Shown here piece after piece: positions 1,498 to 31,937 of a stretch of DNA of 38,574 nt. Where the stretch lies: positions 1 through 38,574 of IMG/VR virus record IMGVR_UViG_3300043411_000541. The stretch is one strand, 5' to 3'. The notes under the pieces are model-generated. The model did no database searches. It was not told where the DNA came from and saw nothing but the letters and a program-made list of their open reading frames with translations. The position numbers were made by a program, and so were the translations under genes. The DNA is from a virus. Within the stretch, counting starts at the first letter, position 1. Every line of letters starts with the position of its first letter.

Positions 1498-2933
1498 TAG
1501 TTGAATACATCAAACTCTAACTTAATTTCGTAAATATCAAATGATCCTGTCGTTGATGAGTGAGTAAATTGTAGTTGTAAATATTTACCCTGCACGTTGC
1601 CTGGTAGTTCTAGTTTAACAGTTTTAATTAAATCCGTTCCAGATAAATCTACATTGTTATTTGTTCCCCCAACCTGCGACCAACTTGAATCTCCGTCTAA
1701 TCTATACTTTACGGTTACATATTCGGCCACATTTGTAGGCTTGAAACTTACATACACGTTATAATAGTTTTTAATTCTGTCTGGTAAATCAACGTCTAAC
1801 TTAGCCGTTTGCCATTCACTTGCGGTTGTTGAAGTGTTTAAAGATTGTGAACCGTCTACCTGCCATACTTTGTCGTTATCAATATCTTGAGCGTAAGAAA
1901 CAAAAGTTCCACCATTTTTAACAAGTGCAAAATCTCCAAACGGTCTATTTGGTAGGAAATCCCAACTATTTAGGTTTACATCATATCGTAGACATACGTC
2001 AGTATAGGCCGTTCCGTTATAGGTAACATCTCCAATATACAGTAAGTATCTTCCGTACTTATCTAAGCCACCTGCAACGCTTGTAGGCGAAGAAATTACA
2101 TCAATTATCCCTTGTACTTTTCTACTTATTAAAATAGGCTTATCTGCTCCACCGTACATATAAATTCCACCCCTGTTATACCAAAGCAATCGACCTTCGG
2201 ACACCTGTACACTTCTTGAGCTTGTAGTCCCGTAAAATCCAGGTACCTGAGTTAAAGAATAACCGTCGTATAACGAAAGTTTGTTTTCCGTAAAATAACA
2301 TATATTACCAGCGTATGTTGTCATTGCTGTAATAGGTTCACCAATGTTGTCAAAGAAGTTTGTTGTTGTGTTAAAAATATCCGTTAATTCTGTAGAAAAT
2401 ATCGTTCTATATGGATATTCTGTCCCTCCATATTTTACGTTTCCTAAGTATAGTTGATCGTTAAAATATGTTCCATGCTTTGCATATATTCCCGACACTG
2501 TTCCACTTGCCGAGCCGTCCCAATAGGTGAGAATATCGTTAAATCCCGTTGTTATATATAATCTTTCATCACTATCAAGAAACGCATTTATAAACTCTGC
2601 TTTGTCAGTTGTGTTATTAGCGAACCCCGATACAACGCCAGTCCACGTTGAACCCGTCCACTTACTTAAAACTGTCCTGTGTAGTTTTACAAGTGTGTGT
2701 GTTCCGTCCTCTTGATCAAAAACCCCTATCCCTTTTCCAACTCCACTTGCTGTTCCACTTCCTACTTCTGAATATCCCAACGCCTTAGATAAAATACCCG
2801 GTCTTCTGTTATCAATATTACTTACAAAAGGGCTTTCATTGTATGCTGTAGCTAGTGGAGAGGTGAATTCCTGCATTCCACCACTAAAATCGTTATATGT
2901 TTTAAACGCCCTTCTAGTTCTTTGTATATTCAT
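1497..2933 (-). CDS. Tail-hub / DNA-stabilisation-like protein (P22 gp10-type)
   Basis: A 478-residue beta-rich protein. Near the N-terminus it has N-D-F-S-G-G followed by S-P-L-A and I-D-N-R-R-P-G (residues about 15-46), a signature common to podoviral tail structural proteins of the packaged-DNA-stabilisation/tail-hub type. The body has repeated glycine/tyrosine blades (for example Y-F-N-D-Q-L-Y-L-G-N), consistent with a beta-propeller, and a C-terminal beta-sandwich. It would close the portal channel and carry fibres. It has no Shine-Dalgarno, only an AT-rich leader, and sits 15 bases after the tailspike gene. The family assignment rests on motif memory. Confidence 0.65.
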   Translation of the reverse strand: MNIQRTRRAFKTYNDFSGGMQEFTSPLATAYNESPFVSNIDNRRPGILSKALGYSEVGSGTASGVGKGIGVFDQEDGTHTLVKLHRTVLSKWTGSTWTGVVSGFANNTTDKAEFINAFLDSDERLYITTGFNDILTYWDGSASGTVSGIYAKHGTYFNDQLYLGNVKYGGTEYPYRTIFSTELTDIFNTTTNFFDNIGEPITAMTTYAGNICYFTENKLSLYDGYSLTQVPGFYGTTSSRSVQVSEGRLLWYNRGGIYMYGGADKPILISRKVQGIIDVISSPTSVAGGLDKYGRYLLYIGDVTYNGTAYTDVCLRYDVNLNSWDFLPNRPFGDFALVKNGGTFVSYAQDIDNDKVWQVDGSQSLNTSTTASEWQTAKLDVDLPDRIKNYYNVYVSFKPTNVAEYVTVKYRLDGDSSWSQVGGTNNNVDLSGTDLIKTVKLELPGNVQGKYLQLQFTHSSTTGSFDIYEIKLEFDVFN

Positions 2934-2948
2934 AGTAGTATTTAAATA

Positions 2949-5219
2949 TTAAGCAGCCTCGTAAGTCCCTTGTATAAAAATCTCGTCTCCTGTAGCCCAT
3001 GTCATTGGAGTAGTAGAAGATAATCCTAAATCGGTTAAATAAGTTGCATTAGCTAACAAAACCCTAATAGACATAGTCGTTGTACTTGCCCATACACCAT
3101 GTGCCTCAAATGCGGCGGTTCCACTGTCTAATATTCTTCCAAGCCCTAGTACTTGAGTTGTTGCGGTTCCTGGATAAGAGATAGAGGTAACGGGTAACGT
3201 GGCTGATACCACTCCAGATACGGAGGAGCTACTACCAAATACTATTCCAAGTCTAAAAAATACGGTTTTACCCAGCCTCGAATAGTATGCGGAGACCGTT
3301 CCATTTCCAACCGTTAGGTTTGTCCACGTTGGTGACCATGAAGTCCACGCTTGAGTTAGTATATTTGCATCTTTAATAGCTTTGGCTGTCGCAAATTTTG
3401 CGTCGTCGGTACCAGTGTTAATTTCTGCACCACTAGCCTTGACTGGAATATCTGCCGTAAATGCCAAGTTAGAATCGGCAATTGCTTTAGAAGTTACAAA
3501 CTTAAAATCGTCCGTCCCAGTGTTTACTTCTGTTCCCGTAGCCTTTAAATCTATATATTTATTTGTCCCGCTTCCTAAGTCGTTTAATTGTCCTGTTCCG
3601 TTAGGATATAGATTGTTCCCACTTATAACATAATAATCACTTGCACCACTTGCTATATTAATTCCGTAACCTTGTGTTCCTGCTGGTAAGTTAGCAATTC
3701 CAGAAGCTATATTATTGTTTGTAATGTTAAAGTATGTAACCCCAGCCGCTACATTTATTCCATGGTAGGTCGTAGAACTTCCCGCACTGTTATTTAATAT
3801 TTTGTTTCCTGATACTAAGAGATTTAATCCTCCCGTTACTGATATTCCATGCTTATCGTTATGAATAATTCTTCCACCAATAATATTTGAATCTACAATG
3901 TTTCCTGATACAAGTATTCCGTTCTCTGTATTATTCCCTGACCAACAGCCAACTAAGTTAATTCCTCTCATTGGCCCACCAGTACCTATTCCTAATTCCC
4001 AACCGTTGTGTCGGCAAGAATCTGCCATTACAGTGTTAAAGAATATCCACTCTAAGTTAGCAACGGCTGCGTTATTATCAAGTGTAACTCCTTTATACGT
4101 TCCATGAATATCGATATTATTAAATACCGCTCCCTGTATAGCTCCTAATATTTTTATTCCTACGTCAGTTCCAGTTCCCGTTGTGTTATCAATTACAATA
4201 TTAGAGAATGTTGCGTCTGCACCATTACCAGTCAAGTATATATAAGAATCAATACAGTCTTCTATATAAACATTATCAACCAATCCTGCGGCTGGTGATC
4301 CTCCTAAACCATAGTACTGATTTTCAATTGTTATGTTTCTTACTGAATATTGAGTTGGTGTCCCGTCAAAGAATACTCCGTACCCACCAGTTTTTGTTAT
4401 TCCATTAAATATAGTTAAATCTTCAAGTGCGAAGTAATCACACTCGTGGAATCTAATTACACTTTGAGAGTTCGTATACCCTTTAACTACCGTTCCACTT
4501 CTACTTTCTCCTACTATTCTGACACCGTTACTGTTATTAAGAATTTCAGAAGTAGTTTTATATATTCCCTTTGGTAAGAATACAGTACCACCACCGTTGG
4601 CTTCTGCTGCGTCTACTGCAGCCTGAATTTCTGCTGTGTCGTCATTTGAATCATCACCCAAAGCTCCATAATCTCTAACATTGAAAACTTCTTCCCTTTG
4701 CCATTTCAATCCGTTACTTTGTGCAGAATCTGCCTTTAGTTTTGTATAGTTAGCACCAACAGTTAGTTTAACTGGCGTGTTATCAGCACTTGCACTTATT
4801 AAATCACCCTTTGCATCTACTATCGAGCTTGCAATTGCCCCAACCTGTGTAGCTGTTACAGAGTGAGGATTACTTGTGTTAGCAATATGGGTATCAATTT
4901 GTGCATGAGTATTTGTTCCAATGTCTGTTAAACTTGTATGAGTTTTTGTTGTAATATCGGCAATGCTTGAAACTGTTTTATTTATTTCCGACCAATCGTA
5001 ATCACCGCTTACGGCTACAACATCTCCAGTTCTACCAAATACCGAAGCAACTGCACCACTTCCACCACCTGAAACAGAATTATTAATGGTTTCAAAGCTA
5101 ACCGCCTTTACAGTTCCGCTTGCACTTTCTGTTGTATCACTAATATCAACAATAGGAATTAAATCCCCGTTTGCTAAACTTGTAAGTACTGTCAATTGTG
5201 ATATTTTTCTTTTTGCCAT
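2949..5219 (-). CDS. Tailspike with pectate-lyase-type beta-helix
   Basis: A 756-residue modular tailspike. Residues 1-45 form an attachment motif (K-I-S-Q-L-T, G-D-L, D-I-S-D-T-T, S-A-S-G) shared with the next gene. At about 57-80 is the phage-fibre motif A-S-V-F-G-R-T-G-D-V-V. From about residue 180 it has F-N-V-R-D-Y-G-A-L-G-D-D and then A-A-V-D-A-A, G-G-T-V-F-L-P-K-G, the classic start of the pectate-lyase-3 beta-helix, followed by many N-N-I / I-S-G-N rungs to about 570. The C-terminal 130 residues (W-S-P-T-W to the end) are a domain shared with 5219-5995. The helix probably binds and cleaves a host surface polysaccharide. Its start codon abuts the preceding gene's stop. Confidence 0.88.
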   Translation of the reverse strand: MAKRKISQLTVLTSLANGDLIPIVDISDTTESASGTVKAVSFETINNSVSGGGSGAVASVFGRTGDVVAVSGDYDWSEINKTVSSIADITTKTHTSLTDIGTNTHAQIDTHIANTSNPHSVTATQVGAIASSIVDAKGDLISASADNTPVKLTVGANYTKLKADSAQSNGLKWQREEVFNVRDYGALGDDSNDDTAEIQAAVDAAEANGGGTVFLPKGIYKTTSEILNNSNGVRIVGESRSGTVVKGYTNSQSVIRFHECDYFALEDLTIFNGITKTGGYGVFFDGTPTQYSVRNITIENQYYGLGGSPAAGLVDNVYIEDCIDSYIYLTGNGADATFSNIVIDNTTGTGTDVGIKILGAIQGAVFNNIDIHGTYKGVTLDNNAAVANLEWIFFNTVMADSCRHNGWELGIGTGGPMRGINLVGCWSGNNTENGILVSGNIVDSNIIGGRIIHNDKHGISVTGGLNLLVSGNKILNNSAGSSTTYHGINVAAGVTYFNITNNNIASGIANLPAGTQGYGINIASGASDYYVISGNNLYPNGTGQLNDLGSGTNKYIDLKATGTEVNTGTDDFKFVTSKAIADSNLAFTADIPVKASGAEINTGTDDAKFATAKAIKDANILTQAWTSWSPTWTNLTVGNGTVSAYYSRLGKTVFFRLGIVFGSSSSVSGVVSATLPVTSISYPGTATTQVLGLGRILDSGTAAFEAHGVWASTTTMSIRVLLANATYLTDLGLSSTTPMTWATGDEIFIQGTYEAA

Positions 5220-6989: not shown

Positions 6990-7019
6990 ATTATACCATA
7001 CTATAGGATACTAACTCAA
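6990..7019 (-). promoter_or_regulatory. Sigma70-like promoter for the tail operon
   Basis: Minus strand: -35 TTGAGT (7014-7019), 18-base spacer, extended -10 TGGTATAAT (hexamer 6990-6995). The spacer carries CCTATAG five bases before the TGG. It lies in the only real gap between the tail operon and the 7021-7272 gene, so tail genes can be expressed separately. Confidence 0.85.
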
Positions 7020-10591: not shown

Positions 10592-10596
10592 TCTAT

Positions 10597-10626
10597 ATTA
10601 TACCATACTATAGGCTTAGATGTCTT
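10597..10626 (-). promoter_or_regulatory. Sigma70-like promoter for the fibre operon
   Basis: Minus strand: extended -10 TGGTATAAT (hexamer 10597-10602), 18-base spacer, weak -35 AAGACA (10621-10626). CCTATAG lies five bases before the TGG, exactly as in the promoter at 6990-7019. It overlaps the 3' end of the 10616-10990 gene. Confidence 0.78.
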
Positions 10627-12517: not shown

Positions 12518-13405
12518 TTAAGCAGTTGTTAATTGAGTGATTTTACCGTTAGCTTTTTCGTTCTTAGCTACTAGTGTTAATTCACCTTCAATTACTCCTC
12601 GCTTACTGTCTCCAATAGATGGAACTTCGTGATGTCCAATTGGTCTAAGTGTTCTAATTTCCCACTTATCTTTTTCCAATATTGCTACTTCACTTGTTAC
12701 CATTGCTCTATCGTAGATAACCTCAAGAATACCGAAGTCTGATTCATAAACATCAACTCTGTTGATGATTTTGTTTGCAGATGCGTCAATGTTCTTGGTG
12801 TTTGATGCTGTGAATCCTGAGATTGCTCTCTTTTGGAATCCATTAGCATAAACTGTGTCAGGGTTACCTCCAGCTGCTGAAATTGTTTCTAATGCATCAT
12901 TAAACATAGACTCTGAAAGAGCTTCGTCTCCTGATCCTGAACCTGTTTCAACGTTAGTTGTAATCCAAGCCAATACACCTTTCATTTGTCTAGCTGCACC
13001 AGATGTTCCTGATACTGCAGATGCGTTATTGACAAGTGCATATTCAATGTCTCTTGCCATTTCTTTCATCTTTTTCTCCATTTGGTAAGCATATTCTTTA
13101 TCTCTACCAGCTTTTGAAACAATATCTAATGTGTTAGATACTTGAAAAGGTTTGTTAAATATTTGAGTGTAGTTACCAAGTCTTGTGGTTGCACTTAGAG
13201 TTGGAAACGTATAGTCTGCACCCTCAACTTGAGCGTTTGCTGCTGCTGATGCTAACTCGTCTGTCTGCCATTCTACGTATGTACCTGTTGCGGTACCTTT
13301 TGCAAAACCAGAAAACATTGGTGTGTCTACTGGACTAATCATTGTGATTAAATCCATGAGGTCTTCTCGTTCTCCTACTGCCTCATATTGTGTAAATATA
13401 GCCAT
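12518..13405 (-). CDS. Major capsid protein, SU10-like family
   Basis: A 295-residue protein with the pattern of the SU10-type HK97-fold major capsid family. The N-terminal L-M-D-L-I-T-M-I-S-P-V-D-T-P-M-F-S-G (residues about 16-33) is followed by V-E-W-Q-T-D-E-L (about 44-51), F-Q-V-S-N-T (about 86-91), a spine-helix-like E-Y-A-Y-Q-M-E-K-K-M-K-E-M (about 103-115) and a C-terminal I-R-T-L-R-P-I-G-H-H-E-V-P-S-I-G-D-S-K-R-G. It directly follows the scaffold gene and is followed by a hairpin, as usual for the most abundant product. There is no Shine-Dalgarno; the leader is A-rich. In-frame start and length fit the family. Confidence 0.85.
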   Translation of the reverse strand: MAIFTQYEAVGEREDLMDLITMISPVDTPMFSGFAKGTATGTYVEWQTDELASAAANAQVEGADYTFPTLSATTRLGNYTQIFNKPFQVSNTLDIVSKAGRDKEYAYQMEKKMKEMARDIEYALVNNASAVSGTSGAARQMKGVLAWITTNVETGSGSGDEALSESMFNDALETISAAGGNPDTVYANGFQKRAISGFTASNTKNIDASANKIINRVDVYESDFGILEVIYDRAMVTSEVAILEKDKWEIRTLRPIGHHEVPSIGDSKRGVIEGELTLVAKNEKANGKITQLTTA

Positions 13406-13431
13406 TGTTCTATTTTGTTATTTTAAAGCCC

Positions 13432-14160
13432 CTACTTTCCTAACCGTTTTAATATCACGTCACTCCACGAAATTTCACCTCGTGATGCGGCCTGTATTTC
13501 TTCTTTTCTACTATCACTTTGAACATTTGCTGGTGTTCCAGCCCTCTCTGTGTAAGTAGGTTGCATTTTAGATTTGATTTTCAAATCAGCCAATGCGTCT
13601 TCGTGCATTAATTTATAAGCTTTCTCTGGGTCTTTAATCCCTTCGTCGTCCATAAATTTTGCAACTTCTTCTGGAACAAATTTAGGTTCTCCTTTAGTAC
13701 CGTCATACTTTGCAGACAATGTTTCAATCTTGCTTCCAAAGTCTCTGATCATTTCTTTCTGCTCTATAATGGACTGTACCATTTGTTGAACGTCTTCGAT
13801 TCTTGCGTACCCCATTTCACGTAATGCAGCGTCTGCTTCTTGCCTAACTGGGTCTGCTTGCACTTGAGGTTTAAATGCACCTTCTAGTCTATCTAGTACT
13901 TGTGCTTTCTCTCTTAGTGTAGCGAGTTCCTTTTCATAGGTCTCGGCTCGTACTCTGTAATCGTCCATGCGGGACTTAGGAACCATTTGCTCCTTTGCAC
14001 TTTCTACTTGCGTATCCTGTGCGTCATTAACTTCTCCCTGGGGTTTTATCGTCTTCTCTGACGTTACTTGGGTATCATTAACCTGTTTGTTGTCTACTTG
14101 CGAGGTAGTTGCACTTGTCTGTGCATTGGCTTGTGCCGTTACGCCATTCCCTTCGTTCAT
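13432..14160 (-). CDS. Scaffolding protein
   Basis: A 242-residue, strongly polar protein. It has a disordered N-terminus rich in N, Q, T and V, a coiled coil around residues 55-90 (Y-R-V-R-A-E-T-Y-E-K-E-L-A-T-L-R-E-K), a second helical region (V-Q-S-I-I-E-Q-K-E) and a short basic C-terminus (I-L-K-R-L-G-K). Composition, size and placement between portal and major capsid genes are those of tailed-phage scaffolds, which guide procapsid assembly through a basic C-terminal helix. The function is inferred from architecture and position, not from a specific motif. Confidence 0.75.
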   Translation of the reverse strand: MNEGNGVTAQANAQTSATTSQVDNKQVNDTQVTSEKTIKPQGEVNDAQDTQVESAKEQMVPKSRMDDYRVRAETYEKELATLREKAQVLDRLEGAFKPQVQADPVRQEADAALREMGYARIEDVQQMVQSIIEQKEMIRDFGSKIETLSAKYDGTKGEPKFVPEEVAKFMDDEGIKDPEKAYKLMHEDALADLKIKSKMQPTYTERAGTPANVQSDSRKEEIQAASRGEISWSDVILKRLGK

Positions 14161-19840: not shown

Positions 19841-20038
19841 TTATAATTTAAATAACTTTGTAGCCAATCCCCAATTATTTTTCAAATCATATTGACGATG
19901 GCACTTGTAACATAATATCCACCAAGATTCTTTACTTCTAGTGTATGACCAATCTTTACTTGCTAGGTTTAGTAATATCCTTAAACACTTTTCACGTCCC
20001 GCTGGAGTTACTACTATTACTTTTGTTCCGTTAATCAT
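19841..20038 (-). CDS. Short HNH-like fragment
   Basis: A 65-residue protein with A-G-R-E-K-C-L-R-I-L-L-N near the middle and W-W-I-L-C-Y-K-C-H-R-Q-Y-D at 42-54. The C-Y-K-C-H-x-x-Y-D block resembles the end of small HNH or zinc-ribbon endonucleases; the N-terminal HNH half is absent or very divergent. It may be a complete small zinc protein or a decayed nuclease. Its ATG overlaps the stop of the glycosyltransferase gene in an ATGA arrangement. Confidence 0.45.
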   Translation of the reverse strand: MINGTKVIVVTPAGREKCLRILLNLASKDWSYTRSKESWWILCYKCHRQYDLKNNWGLATKLFKL

Positions 20039-20991
20039 AATCCGTTATAATAACCCTTACTTAATTCGTCCTTACTTAATCTGTCGTATCTCTTTAACAA
20101 ATCTGTGTTCTGGAATATATGTGGCTTCTGGTGTGGTGAAAACGTAAAATGAGAAACGAAGGCGTCAGGACAAATGATATTACTTCTACCAGTCACAAGT
20201 GGTATCTTTTCAGTTAGCCATATTTCCTCGTCTAAATCCTCAAACTTACCATCAAACTGTGCATAATCACTCCCAAAGATTGCAAAATTACTTATACTGA
20301 ATCTGCTAGCATCTGTTAGTAAATATCCATCACCATTCCAACTTACCCTTTTATCCTCTGTATCATCAACACCACCCTTAAAAAACAAATCCTTAACAGT
20401 TCCCCCTTTAATTTTTCCAAGTAATACCTCATGTAAGTATTCAGCAAACTCTCCACTACCCCATCCAACATCATCCATACACCACGTAGTGCAAGCTCCA
20501 TAATCAAACATAATATTACCCTCCTGCTGGTGTAGGAAACTAATAATTGCGTTATTCCAAATGTTACCAAAAACCGCCCAATACTCTGGGTGTTCTAATC
20601 TAAACCTAACAATATTCTTAAAGAAGTCATCCTCTATATAAACAATATCATCATCAAACCTAATGTAGATGGTGTCGGGATCAACACAATACTCAAAGAA
20701 TCTCCCTGTATTCCATTGTAACGGCCCATAATCACTTCTTGCCCTATCCTCTGGTGTGTTCTCGCCCTTATGATAGAACTTGTATCCTTCTGGTAATTGG
20801 TAAACTTTAAATAACGAATCCCTTTTTGCTAAATCGTGTATATAATCAATATCAGATTCAACGTCTGTATTTTGCCACAACATAACCTCATCAATCACAT
20901 CTCTATGCTTCTGGAAATATCGTACTAAAATGGAAAGTGTTTGTCGCCTGCCCGCTGCTACGAATGGTTTAATCTTGTATCCCTCTATCAT
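20035..20991 (-). CDS. GT-A-like glycosyltransferase
   Basis: A 318-residue soluble protein. The DxD motif is R-F-D-D-D-I-V-Y-I (D113-D115), which binds the metal and nucleotide sugar in GT-A enzymes. The N-terminal F-V-A-A-G-R-R-Q-T-L-S-I-L (residues 10-22) and D-E-V-M-L-W-Q-N-T-D fit the nucleotide-binding strand arrangement. The C-terminal part has W-N-G-D-G-Y-L-L-T and several tryptophans that could form the acceptor site. It probably transfers a sugar to a glycan, protein or DNA. It has its own promoter (21031-21060) and opens a cassette with the epimerase. Confidence 0.7.
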   Translation of the reverse strand: MIEGYKIKPFVAAGRRQTLSILVRYFQKHRDVIDEVMLWQNTDVESDIDYIHDLAKRDSLFKVYQLPEGYKFYHKGENTPEDRARSDYGPLQWNTGRFFEYCVDPDTIYIRFDDDIVYIEDDFFKNIVRFRLEHPEYWAVFGNIWNNAIISFLHQQEGNIMFDYGACTTWCMDDVGWGSGEFAEYLHEVLLGKIKGGTVKDLFFKGGVDDTEDKRVSWNGDGYLLTDASRFSISNFAIFGSDYAQFDGKFEDLDEEIWLTEKIPLVTGRSNIICPDAFVSHFTFSPHQKPHIFQNTDLLKRYDRLSKDELSKGYYNGL

Positions 20992-21030
20992 TAATAGATT
21001 TATAAACTGATTTCCCCACCTTATGGATAT

Positions 21031-21060
21031 AGATTACCATTAAACCCTATAGGTTGTCAA
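21031..21060 (-). promoter_or_regulatory. Sigma70 promoter for the glycosylation cassette
   Basis: Minus strand: perfect -35 TTGACA (21055-21060), 18-base spacer beginning ACCTATAGG, -10 TAATCT (21031-21036) preceded by TGG. This is the best -35 of the genome. The predicted leader is about 33 bases. Confidence 0.82.
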
Positions 21061-21061
21061 T

Positions 21062-21472
21062 TATATATAGTCTGTTATTTAATACCTAACGGTTGCCTGA
21101 AGACCGAAACTCACTCCCTACTAATAGGAAGTTTGAATAGTTCACAAAGGCGTGATTATATAACCAAGTAAATGGTGTGTGATTCAAAACATGTTTATTG
21201 TCACAGTGTAGCTACCACTGGGCGGATTCCTCATCCGTGCTTTCCGTTCATAGTCTATACCTAACGTATAGCCGTCAGACCGTTTGTAACCCTCCCTTGC
21301 CTTCTATGGCACGTTACGATCCTATTCCAAGGTGTACTGTGTTACCCGTACATATACCATAACTACTCCAGAATTAACTGGTAATCCCCCTCGGTCATAC
21401 CAACCAACTCTCTAATTCAAAACAATAAGGTGCACCCATATTGTAAACATGTCCTTGATTCAACACCAAGAT
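21062..21472 (-). ncRNA. Large structured RNA candidate B
   Basis: About 410 bases without a credible gene, starting just after promoter 21480-21508. A 9-bp long-range helix (21444-21452 with 21189-21197) encloses a multibranched core. Local helices: 21454-21457/21467-21470; 21422-21427/21439-21444; 21368-21371/21378-21381; 21286-21290/21341-21345 with 21295-21299/21328-21332 inside; 21255-21260/21266-21271; 21223-21227/21233-21237; 21204-21208/21216-21220; 21113-21120/21125-21132; 21090-21093/21103-21106. The 8-bp helix near the 3' end includes a G-U pair in the minus-strand RNA that would be a C-A mismatch on the plus strand, supporting the strand. It may belong with the large phage-associated RNAs such as ROOL or GOLLD in kind, but I cannot match it to any of them. 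Confidence 0.72.
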
Positions 21473-21479
21473 ACAATAT

Positions 21480-21508
21480 ATTATACCATAAAGACTATAG
21501 GCCGTCTA
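21480..21508 (-). promoter_or_regulatory. Sigma70-like promoter for RNA candidate B
   Basis: Minus strand: -35 TAGACG (21503-21508), 17-base spacer beginning GCCTATAG, extended -10 TGGTATAAT (hexamer 21480-21485). The predicted start is near 21473, immediately before the structured stretch and far from any gene start. Confidence 0.8.
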
Positions 21509-21514
21509 ATTCTC

Positions 21515-21660
21515 TTTAATCTGGACGCTGATTAGCCCCGTACTTCCTCACTGTCAACGGTATTTGCGTAACTACAGGCTAGGCGGTCTTATATACGTAA
21601 CTCAACCACCGCTTTTTCATCAGACCAGCGTTGTGAGTGATTTGCTGTCGCCCAGATTGA
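21515..21660 (-). ncRNA. Structured RNA candidate A
   Basis: A 145-base folded domain. The strand 21518-21530 pairs in two coaxial pieces, with 21652-21658 (7 bp) and with 21626-21631 (6 bp). Inside are 21583-21587/21608-21612 (5 bp) and 21538-21541/21557-21560 (4 bp). It lies between a small membrane-protein gene and the promoter of RNA B. It could be a separate RNA, a 3' structural element of the upstream mRNA, or an upstream domain of RNA B. The strand is not decided by the pairs seen, and minus is inferred from the neighbours. Confidence 0.55.
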
Positions 21661-21666
21661 AAAGAA

Positions 21667-21804
21667 CTACTCAATATTAATAAATAAAAGAACAATAAAC
21701 ACTAACCAGAAGTTCCAACCAAATAACAAACAGATCAACAAAGCAATTAGTATCTTTGGTACTAAAGCCACAAACAAAACTATTAAGCTAACTATTATTT
21801 CCAT
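21667..21804 (-). CDS. Small hydrophobic membrane protein
   Basis: A 45-residue protein, almost all hydrophobic, with two possible membrane segments: L-I-V-L-F-V-A-L-V near the start, and F-G-W-N-F-W-L-V-F-I-V-L-L-F near the end. Its ATG is read out of frame from the last codons of the small-terminase gene (17-base overlap), which suggests translational coupling. It could be a small membrane effector or holin-like peptide; nothing specific can be claimed. The ATG-to-stop frame is clean and continuous with the operon. Confidence 0.5.
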   Translation of the reverse strand: MEIIVSLIVLFVALVPKILIALLICLLFGWNFWLVFIVLLFINIE

Positions 21805-22159
21805 CTTTAAAGTCCCCTACAAATATTCCTGCTTCAATCCTTTCTCCTTTACTTGTAACATCAACGTTCGCCGTTGGGCTCATTTCGTCCCTTTCTTTTC
21901 TCTCTAACCACCATTTACTTGTATTCTCGTCACCACTATCAATCTTTGCAACTAGGTTAGTTCTTGCTATTGTGTTTACTTCGTTTTGCCATGCAGTTAC
22001 TTTTAATAGAAGCTCAGGATCATTCTTTAACCATTCAGTTACTGTTGGCTGTGGTATTCCTGCGTACTGACAAGCCTTCGTTGATGAGTAACCTAACTTA
22101 TAATAAGGCTTTAATACTTCCATGACTTTTTCTCTATCCCAAGGTATTCCCTGTGCCAT
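21788..22159 (-). CDS. terS: Probable terminase small subunit
   Basis: A 123-residue protein with an N-terminal helix-turn-helix: V-L-K-P-Y-Y-K-L-G-Y-S-S-T-K-A-C-Q-Y-A-G-I (residues 15-35), then P-Q-P-T-V-T-E-W-L and a linker helix (W-Q-N-E-V-N-T-I-A-R). The C-terminal tail is D/E/K-rich (M-S-P-T-A-N-V-D-V). This HTH plus oligomerisation-helix plan matches phage small terminases, which recognise the packaging site and deliver DNA to the large subunit. The gene is about 4 kb upstream of terL with the glycosylation and RNA block in between, so the pair is split. An alternative is a HTH regulator. Confidence 0.65.
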   Translation of the reverse strand: MAQGIPWDREKVMEVLKPYYKLGYSSTKACQYAGIPQPTVTEWLKNDPELLLKVTAWQNEVNTIARTNLVAKIDSGDENTSKWWLERKERDEMSPTANVDVTSKGERIEAGIFVGDFKDGNNS

Positions 22160-22630: not shown

Positions 22631-22636
22631 GTATAT

Positions 22637-22666
22637 ATTATATCATAATTTAAATAACTTTAATAC
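22637..22666 (-). promoter_or_regulatory. Extended -10 promoter for the GroES-terS unit
   Basis: Minus strand: TATGATATAAT (-10 hexamer 22637-22642), with only a weak -35 candidate GTATTA (22661-22666). It closely resembles the -10 region at 16468-16473, including the leaderless spacing to the ATG, but has no CCTATAG element. Confidence 0.62.
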
Positions 22667-31678: not shown

Positions 31679-31689
31679 ACTTTTTAAAC

Positions 31690-31893
31690 CTAAATTTAAA
31701 TGTTTTATATACTAATCCATACCAACAGAGCAATATCATTACTCCGCAAGCAGGAATCAATATACAAATTGAAAGCGGGGCTGGAATCCCGAACAGTTTA
31801 CTCTAACAGTCGTTGCTAAGGATTTGAACCTTATACAAACGAAAGATACCATATCTTGTTTTCCCTTAAACTACTTTCGCCTCAAAGAGCAAC
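31690..31893 (-). ncRNA. Structured RNA candidate D, tRNA-like
   Basis: A gene-free interval between 31679 and 31937. A TAGTTGC/GCAACGA stem (31889-31895/31810-31816, one mismatch) closes a domain. Beside its 3' strand is a perfect T-arm-like hairpin with 7-base loop TTCAAAT (31817-31833). The 5' part forms a second stem GCGAAAG/CTTTCGT (31874-31880/31839-31845), enclosing a GTTT/AAAC hairpin with D-loop-like AAGGGA (31858-31871) and an AGATA/TATCT hairpin with 3-base loop (31844-31856, competing by one base with the stem). A normal anticodon loop is missing. Further 3', a CGGG/CCCG hairpin follows. A terminal G-U pair exists only in the minus RNA. It is therefore not an ordinary tRNA. Confidence 0.6.
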
Positions 31894-31896
31894 TAC

Positions 31897-31925
31897 ATAT
31901 TACCACATCACCAATACCACACAAG
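31897..31925 (-). promoter_or_regulatory. Promoter for RNA candidate D
   Basis: Minus strand: -35 CTTGTG (31920-31925), 17-base spacer, -10 TGGTAATAT (hexamer 31897-31902). TATAGGT lies just upstream. The predicted start is within a few bases of the GTTGC arm of the RNA. Confidence 0.6.
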
Positions 31926-31937
31926 ACCTATAAAGAT

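Follow-up and report, generated by a model that had tools for sequence, protein, structure and literature searches.

Among the structured RNAs encoded by phages, the pRNA of phi29 is moderately sized and forms multimers through contacts between its loops. It is known from phi29-like phages, pairs different loops and serves phi29-type packaging. Longer phage- or prophage-encoded non-coding RNAs are represented by ROOL, of about 660 nt and often located near tRNA genes, which forms an RNA-only nanocage, and by GOLLD, a structured RNA in many cases longer than 800 nt. OLE is a structured RNA of the bacterial chromosome. OLE, ROOL and GOLLD use symmetric kissing loops, AGCU being one variant of the OLE palindrome; ROOL, studied on an RNA of 659 nt, is a homo-oligomer formed through kissing loops, and the 5' and 3' halves of GOLLD are unequally conserved (PMC12286853).

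We analyzed a 38.6-kb phage record, hereafter the window, in which the minus strand holds nearly all genes. A preliminary description had placed a large RNA, called here RNA B, at positions 21062-21472 and considered a kinship with ROOL, GOLLD or OLE plausible. This kinship was not borne out, no Rfam match to these families being obtained at the gathering score or at E-values up to 5. The boundaries also had to be redrawn: the conserved part spans approximately 21204-21410, whereas 21062-21200 is not conserved, and with about 210 nt it is not large by ROOL or GOLLD standards. Compared with OLE, RNA B is a structured RNA whose hairpin H6 holds UAGCUA where the OLE kissing palindrome can be AGCU, but OLE is much longer and chromosomal while RNA B is carried by a phage. 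RNA B shares with ROOL its phage origin, and with GOLLD its phage origin, its structure and the unequal conservation of its halves, although in GOLLD it is the 3' region that is universally conserved and in RNA B the 5' part. In contrast to the frequent location of ROOL near tRNA genes, and as a further difference from GOLLD, no tRNA was found in the window. The likeness to phi29 pRNA lies in the moderate size, in the possible loop-loop multimerisation and in the position of RNA B and of a second RNA, RNA A, adjoining terminase genes; here again no Rfam match was found, and the window phage encodes both the large and the small terminase subunits. A looser likeness in mechanism to ROOL, GOLLD or OLE is possible, as the palindromic loop conserved in RNA B would be suitable for kissing within a homo-oligomer.

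On the minus strand, RNA B is flanked upstream by the terminase small subunit gene (21788-22159, minus) and downstream by a glycosyltransferase gene (20035-20991, minus), its neighbour on this side in both phages compared below. A 45-aa hydrophobic ORF (21667-21804, minus) follows the terminase small subunit gene, overlaps its end and forms the upstream limit of the non-coding block. The minus-strand block devoid of any plausible gene thus covers 20992-21666, and is shorter than the 0.8 kb initially assigned to it because this ORF occupies its upstream end. Within 21062-21472 the absence of a plausible gene was confirmed, the largest minus-strand ORF being of 33 aa with a TTG start. A protein-coding reading of this interval was dropped, ORF conservation being absent.

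The glycosyltransferase protein led to one independent phage, L002, whose region upstream of this gene is intact (gene at 4001-4999, 58% identity). Two further records, L003 and L012, correspond to the L002 sequence from another assembly, and the number of independent genomes compared is therefore two. In L002 the glycosyltransferase gene is followed by epimerase and exonuclease genes in the same order as in the window, and is preceded, at the place of the window block, by a 1.95-kb non-coding gap. Other features of this neighbourhood were recorded in the relatives. At 2430-3000 in the wider L002 gap, TATGTGGATAAC is repeated in tandem alongside large inverted repeats, possibly a replication origin, with a terminator-like hairpin ahead of them at 2070-2091. 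Two small L002 ORFs, one at 3034-3216 that overlaps RNA A and one at 3766-3945, have a YN-G-WVV-like stretch in common and may encode paralogous small proteins. In another relative, L009, an HNH endonuclease gene (65-540) lies directly upstream of the glycosyltransferase gene and either replaces or adjoins the RNA block, the contig ending before the two can be told apart. Finally, a phage-like contig with distant relatives of the glycosyltransferase and epimerase genes (L034, JAKQDR010000278.1) is binned in a MAG from an order made up of roughly 1-Mb genomes, which hints weakly at hosts of reduced genome size.

The consensus-like promoter initially reported upstream of RNA B is present. On the minus strand, TAGACG and TATAAT are separated by 17 nt at 21508-21480 (10 of 12 matches), with a TGG extended -10; the whole promoter (21479-21508, minus) reads TAGACG, 17 nt including CCTATAG, then TATGGTATAATA. 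Allowing at most one mismatch, TATGGTATAATA recurs at 5 sites in the window where 0.65 would be expected, every one of them on the minus strand, and we therefore regard it as a genuine phage promoter type. The identical motif precedes the RNA of L002, at position 3310. From the sequence, transcription is expected to start near 21473. Elsewhere, TATGGTATAATA promoters were observed in the window at 10596-10607 and 22636-22647 (minus; TATGATATAATA at 22636), and in the relatives at L002 8888, L005 1468, L009 3825 and L011 3844. Most of these other promoters are followed within about 10 nt by an ATG, which suggests leaderless mRNAs. CCTATAG occurs directly upstream of the -10 element at window positions 7001, 10608, 16484 and 21495.

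The conserved core of RNA B (21204-21410, minus) is formed of six hairpins, H1 to H6, found in the same order in L002 at 3333-3527. In a search of 54.5 kb, a covariance model based on the window alone (21204-21412) recovered L002 3331-3527 over its full length with an E-value of 1.3e-8, the next-best match having an E-value of 1.6e-3; these E-values are rough, the calibration having been shortened. The two phages were also compared with our own Sankoff-type structural alignment program, using two shuffle controls of 100 shuffles each. Aligning 21438-21204 with L002 3320-3527 gave z-scores of 3.2 and 3.6, with none of the 100 shuffles scoring as high in either control; when H5 and H6 were left out, the z-scores were 2.2 and 3.0. 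H5 and H6 entered the model structure, and the alignment boundary at H6 was set, after L002 had been seen, so that both the covariance E-values and the alignment z-scores are somewhat optimistic. The alignment was clear only when bounded at H6: an intermediate alignment gave a z-score of about 2 and did not place the H6 loops opposite each other, the global alignment of the full regions failed to reach significance (z-scores of 1.0 and 1.6), and the 3' part gave no signal against L002 (-0.5 and -1.2).

Going from 5' to 3', H1 (21371-21410, minus) is a long GU-containing hairpin in which 15 aligned pairs are kept in both phages, 5 of them changed on both sides. In the irregular hairpin H2 (21314-21362, minus), 15 aligned pairs are also kept, most of them changed on both sides; this element is less certain, as sequence-only MAFFT misaligns it. 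H3 (21298-21311, minus) is a small hairpin, UGCC-AUAGAA-GGCA, followed by the purine-rich AAGGGAG; its L002 counterpart is CUCU-GAAGA-AGAG followed by AAGGAG. H4 (21245-21282, minus) is a weak hairpin of uncertain pairing, aligned by the structural aligner only. The last two hairpins, of 5 bp each, align without gaps in the sequence-only MAFFT alignment: H5 (21223-21237, minus), CGGAU-GAGGA-AUCCG, and H6 (21204-21220, minus), which bears a 7-nt loop, GUAGCUA. Each has 3 of its 5 pairs double-compensatory, so that all 10 pairs are kept and 6 are doubly changed, and this compensation vanishes when the partners are slid by 1 to 3 columns. The loop of H6 is identical in L002 and contains the palindrome UAGCUA. 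It is the only loop of at least 6 nt in a 5-bp hairpin common to the window and L002 regions, and a common loop of at least 7 nt in such a hairpin was obtained in 0.6% of shuffled pairs.

G-U pairs account for 6 and 7 of the 54 aligned pairs of RNA B in the two phages, and for 5 and 7 of the 38 of RNA A. Since they become A-C mismatches on the other strand, the RNA strand is assigned to the minus strand, in the direction of the promoter. The comparison of these two sequences makes RNA B well supported as an apparently non-coding structured phage RNA conserved in a distant phage. In this respect the idea of an RNA that is structured and has a promoter of its own held up, the promoter and a hairpin-rich domain with compensatory changes both being kept in the relative.

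The interval as a whole is not strongly folded, contrary to what had been proposed: its folding energy is little better than that of shuffled sequence (z-score of -0.68 for 21020-21480 and of -1.51 for 21062-21472, minus), and the plus strand of 21062-21472 scores as well as the minus strand (-1.68). A sub-domain, 21175-21472, reaches -2.43 with boundaries picked afterwards, against -0.67 for 21062-21174. The GC content is locally high at 21200-21400 (0.475, rank 5 of 383 windows). In L002, the RNA past the promoter folds better than shuffled sequence (-2.96 and -3.05). Among the helices singled out in the preliminary description, the 9-bp helix joining 21444-21452 and 21189-21197 is real in the window, where it forms the core of a 25-nt imperfect inverted repeat (5' arm 21444-21468, 3' arm 21173-21197, minus; 72% complementary), but it is specific to the window and not conserved in L002. 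There, no counterpart of the 3' arm follows H6, and the 5' arm is missing, as H1 comes just 13 nt after the -10 box. The 8-bp hairpin at 21113-21132 is likewise visible in the sequence, with one U-G pair, but belongs to the unconserved 3' part of the interval (21062-21172, minus). Both elements may be real in the window phage, without comparative support.

Two other stretches of the window drew attention by their folding. The lowest 200-nt folding z-score of the genome, -6.47 (20 shuffles), is found at 31679-31937 (minus), upstream of an Erf-like gene, the whole stretch having a z-score of -1.73. This intergenic stretch contains a tRNA-T-arm-like UAAGG-UUCAAAU-CCUUA and an acceptor-like pairing, with a long, almost perfect hairpin after them; neither ARAGORN nor Rfam found anything in it. 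The second stretch, 13401-13600 (minus), is also strongly folded (200-nt z-score of -5.08; -3.90 for 13380-13620) and is placed between gene 13432-14160 and the beginning of the gene for the major head protein.

Searches for catalogued families and for further copies were negative beyond the two phages. Rfam returned a single chance-level match over the whole window and over 20900-21900 (E-values up to 5), and none on the L002 gap, in line with the initial remark that the RNA fits no known motif. A leader of the LasI thermometer type (RF02759) was rejected, its 18.1 bits against a cut-off of 76 (E-value of 2) corresponding to chance. Distant blastn searches with the block gave one 30-bp chance match in phage records and none in plasmid records; with the L002 gap in phages, the matches listed comprised only short ones to a promoter region. 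Scanning viral contigs for a promoter-plus-loop pattern, we obtained true matches only in L002 and its near-identical copy, the others lying inside protein genes (GGTAGCTACA coding) or in unrelated sequence. No third copy of RNA A or RNA B was found among relatives collected by their exonuclease, epimerase, terminase or glycosyltransferase proteins, and 83 genomes from the order to which the MAG with a related phage contig belongs yielded none of RNA A. The covariance models R1 and R2 had convincing matches in these two phages only. RNA B matches no Rfam 15 family and thus appears to represent a new phage non-coding RNA family, seen in two independent genomes.

We tentatively favour, with a confidence just short of an even chance, the explanation that RNA B is a non-coding phage RNA, transcribed on its own, whose copies associate with one another by loop-loop kissing. 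A host polymerase of the sigma-70 type would make a separate RNA from the promoter at 21508-21480, and this RNA would end before or near the glycosyltransferase gene. The reason to infer a separate RNA is that sites of the TATAAT type stand immediately ahead of the next gene region in L002 and L009: TATAAT is present at the matching place in L002 (GTGTGTTATAAT, near 3960) and in L009 (TTGTGATATAAT). The site is less clear in the window. There the leader of the glycosyltransferase gene (20992-21061, minus) contains TTGACA and CCTATAG elements, and promoter calling on the window called none within it; a separate promoter of the gene at this place is possible, judging from the sites of the two relatives. 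In the proposed mechanism, the H6 loop would pair with its counterpart in a second copy (UAGCUA with UAGCUA), a loop-specific contact being suggested because GUAGCUA is kept while its stem is replaced. Self-association is thus read from one palindromic loop. As a homodimer or larger assembly, RNA B would then act in trans during infection, and one may guess that the assembly serves as a scaffold or as a host-takeover RNA made in quantity.

The main rival is that RNA B is the cis-acting 5' leader of a glycosyltransferase-epimerase-exonuclease operon transcribed as one long mRNA, a 480-nt folded leader that would control translation or stability as an attenuator, a riboswitch-like element or an RNase shield. 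It owes this rank to the fact that no terminator was found between RNA B and the glycosyltransferase gene on the minus strand of the window. RNA B is moreover on the same strand as this gene and directly upstream of it in both phages, and its 3' part, which adjoins the gene, is variable as expression platforms are. Against a leader speak the TATAAT-type site located just before the gene in L002, the unequal distance from the core to the start codon, about 210 nt in the window versus about 470 nt in L002, and another possible small ORF between core and gene in the latter; nor did any alternative pairing with a ribosome-binding site come to notice. On balance we consider a leader possible but rather doubtful.

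RNA A, of about 150 nt and multi-branched (21508-21658, minus), has its relative at L002 3124-3258 and lies directly upstream of the RNA B promoter. Between the two phages it shows 26 consensus pairs, none broken and 7 double-compensatory, with structural alignment z-scores of 2.7 and 3.3, and its sequence-level alignment is clearer than that of RNA B. The folding z-score of 21500-21669 (minus) is -2.61. Other readings of RNA A were rejected. Its 53-nt likeness to an L002 ORF, which could have indicated a decayed small gene, is accounted for by the RNA alignment, and the corresponding frame of the window lacks an ATG, GTG or TTG start ahead of the matching part. A hammerhead-like CUGAUGA is absent from L002 and has no GAAA partner.

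The conservation of RNA A directly upstream of the RNA B promoter in both phages, and the restriction of R1 and R2 to these phages, would agree with RNA A and RNA B being one larger RNA or two cooperating RNAs, the promoter between them boosting the second half. However, the -35 element abuts the end of RNA A in the window, whereas about 50 nt separate RNA A from the promoter core in L002, and the window RNA A comes immediately after the terminase small subunit operon, of which it may be the 3' end. We therefore hold a single or joint element to be unlikely. More ambitious, and in our view decidedly improbable, is a two-RNA cassette of a new class, in which RNA A and RNA B would build a GUAGCUA-assembled homo-oligomer for packaging or host takeover; the subunit of such a particle would be much smaller than ROOL or GOLLD.

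Conservation at the DNA level, as a replication origin, a packaging site or a regulatory region whose hairpins would form in single-stranded DNA, could be invoked since the non-coding block adjoins the terminase small subunit gene and since the L002 gap has two tandem TATGTGGATAAC copies with a DnaA-box-like sequence and strong inverted repeats. Yet the window gap has no DnaA-box-like site, the wobbles of RNA A and RNA B pair on the transcribed strand only, and in both phages a promoter is directed into the conserved core, which leaves this explanation very little credence. Chance, in the sense of an accidental likeness to L002 in an ordinary promoter-bearing intergenic region, would fit the unexceptional folding energy of the full interval and the weak alignment of the full regions, but is already disfavoured and hardly tenable given the match of the window-only model to the syntenic place in L002 and the six double-compensatory pairs around an identical loop.

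Two neighbouring RNAs can thus be recognised with no more than two distant genomes, provided that synteny and compensatory change point the same way. Structured RNAs of phages to which no function is assigned, ROOL and GOLLD among them, constitute an open problem, for which the short conserved core of RNA B and its single candidate kissing loop would provide a small and easily tested model of phage RNA self-assembly. If RNA B is instead a leader, it would represent a new control element placed before a phage sugar-modification operon.
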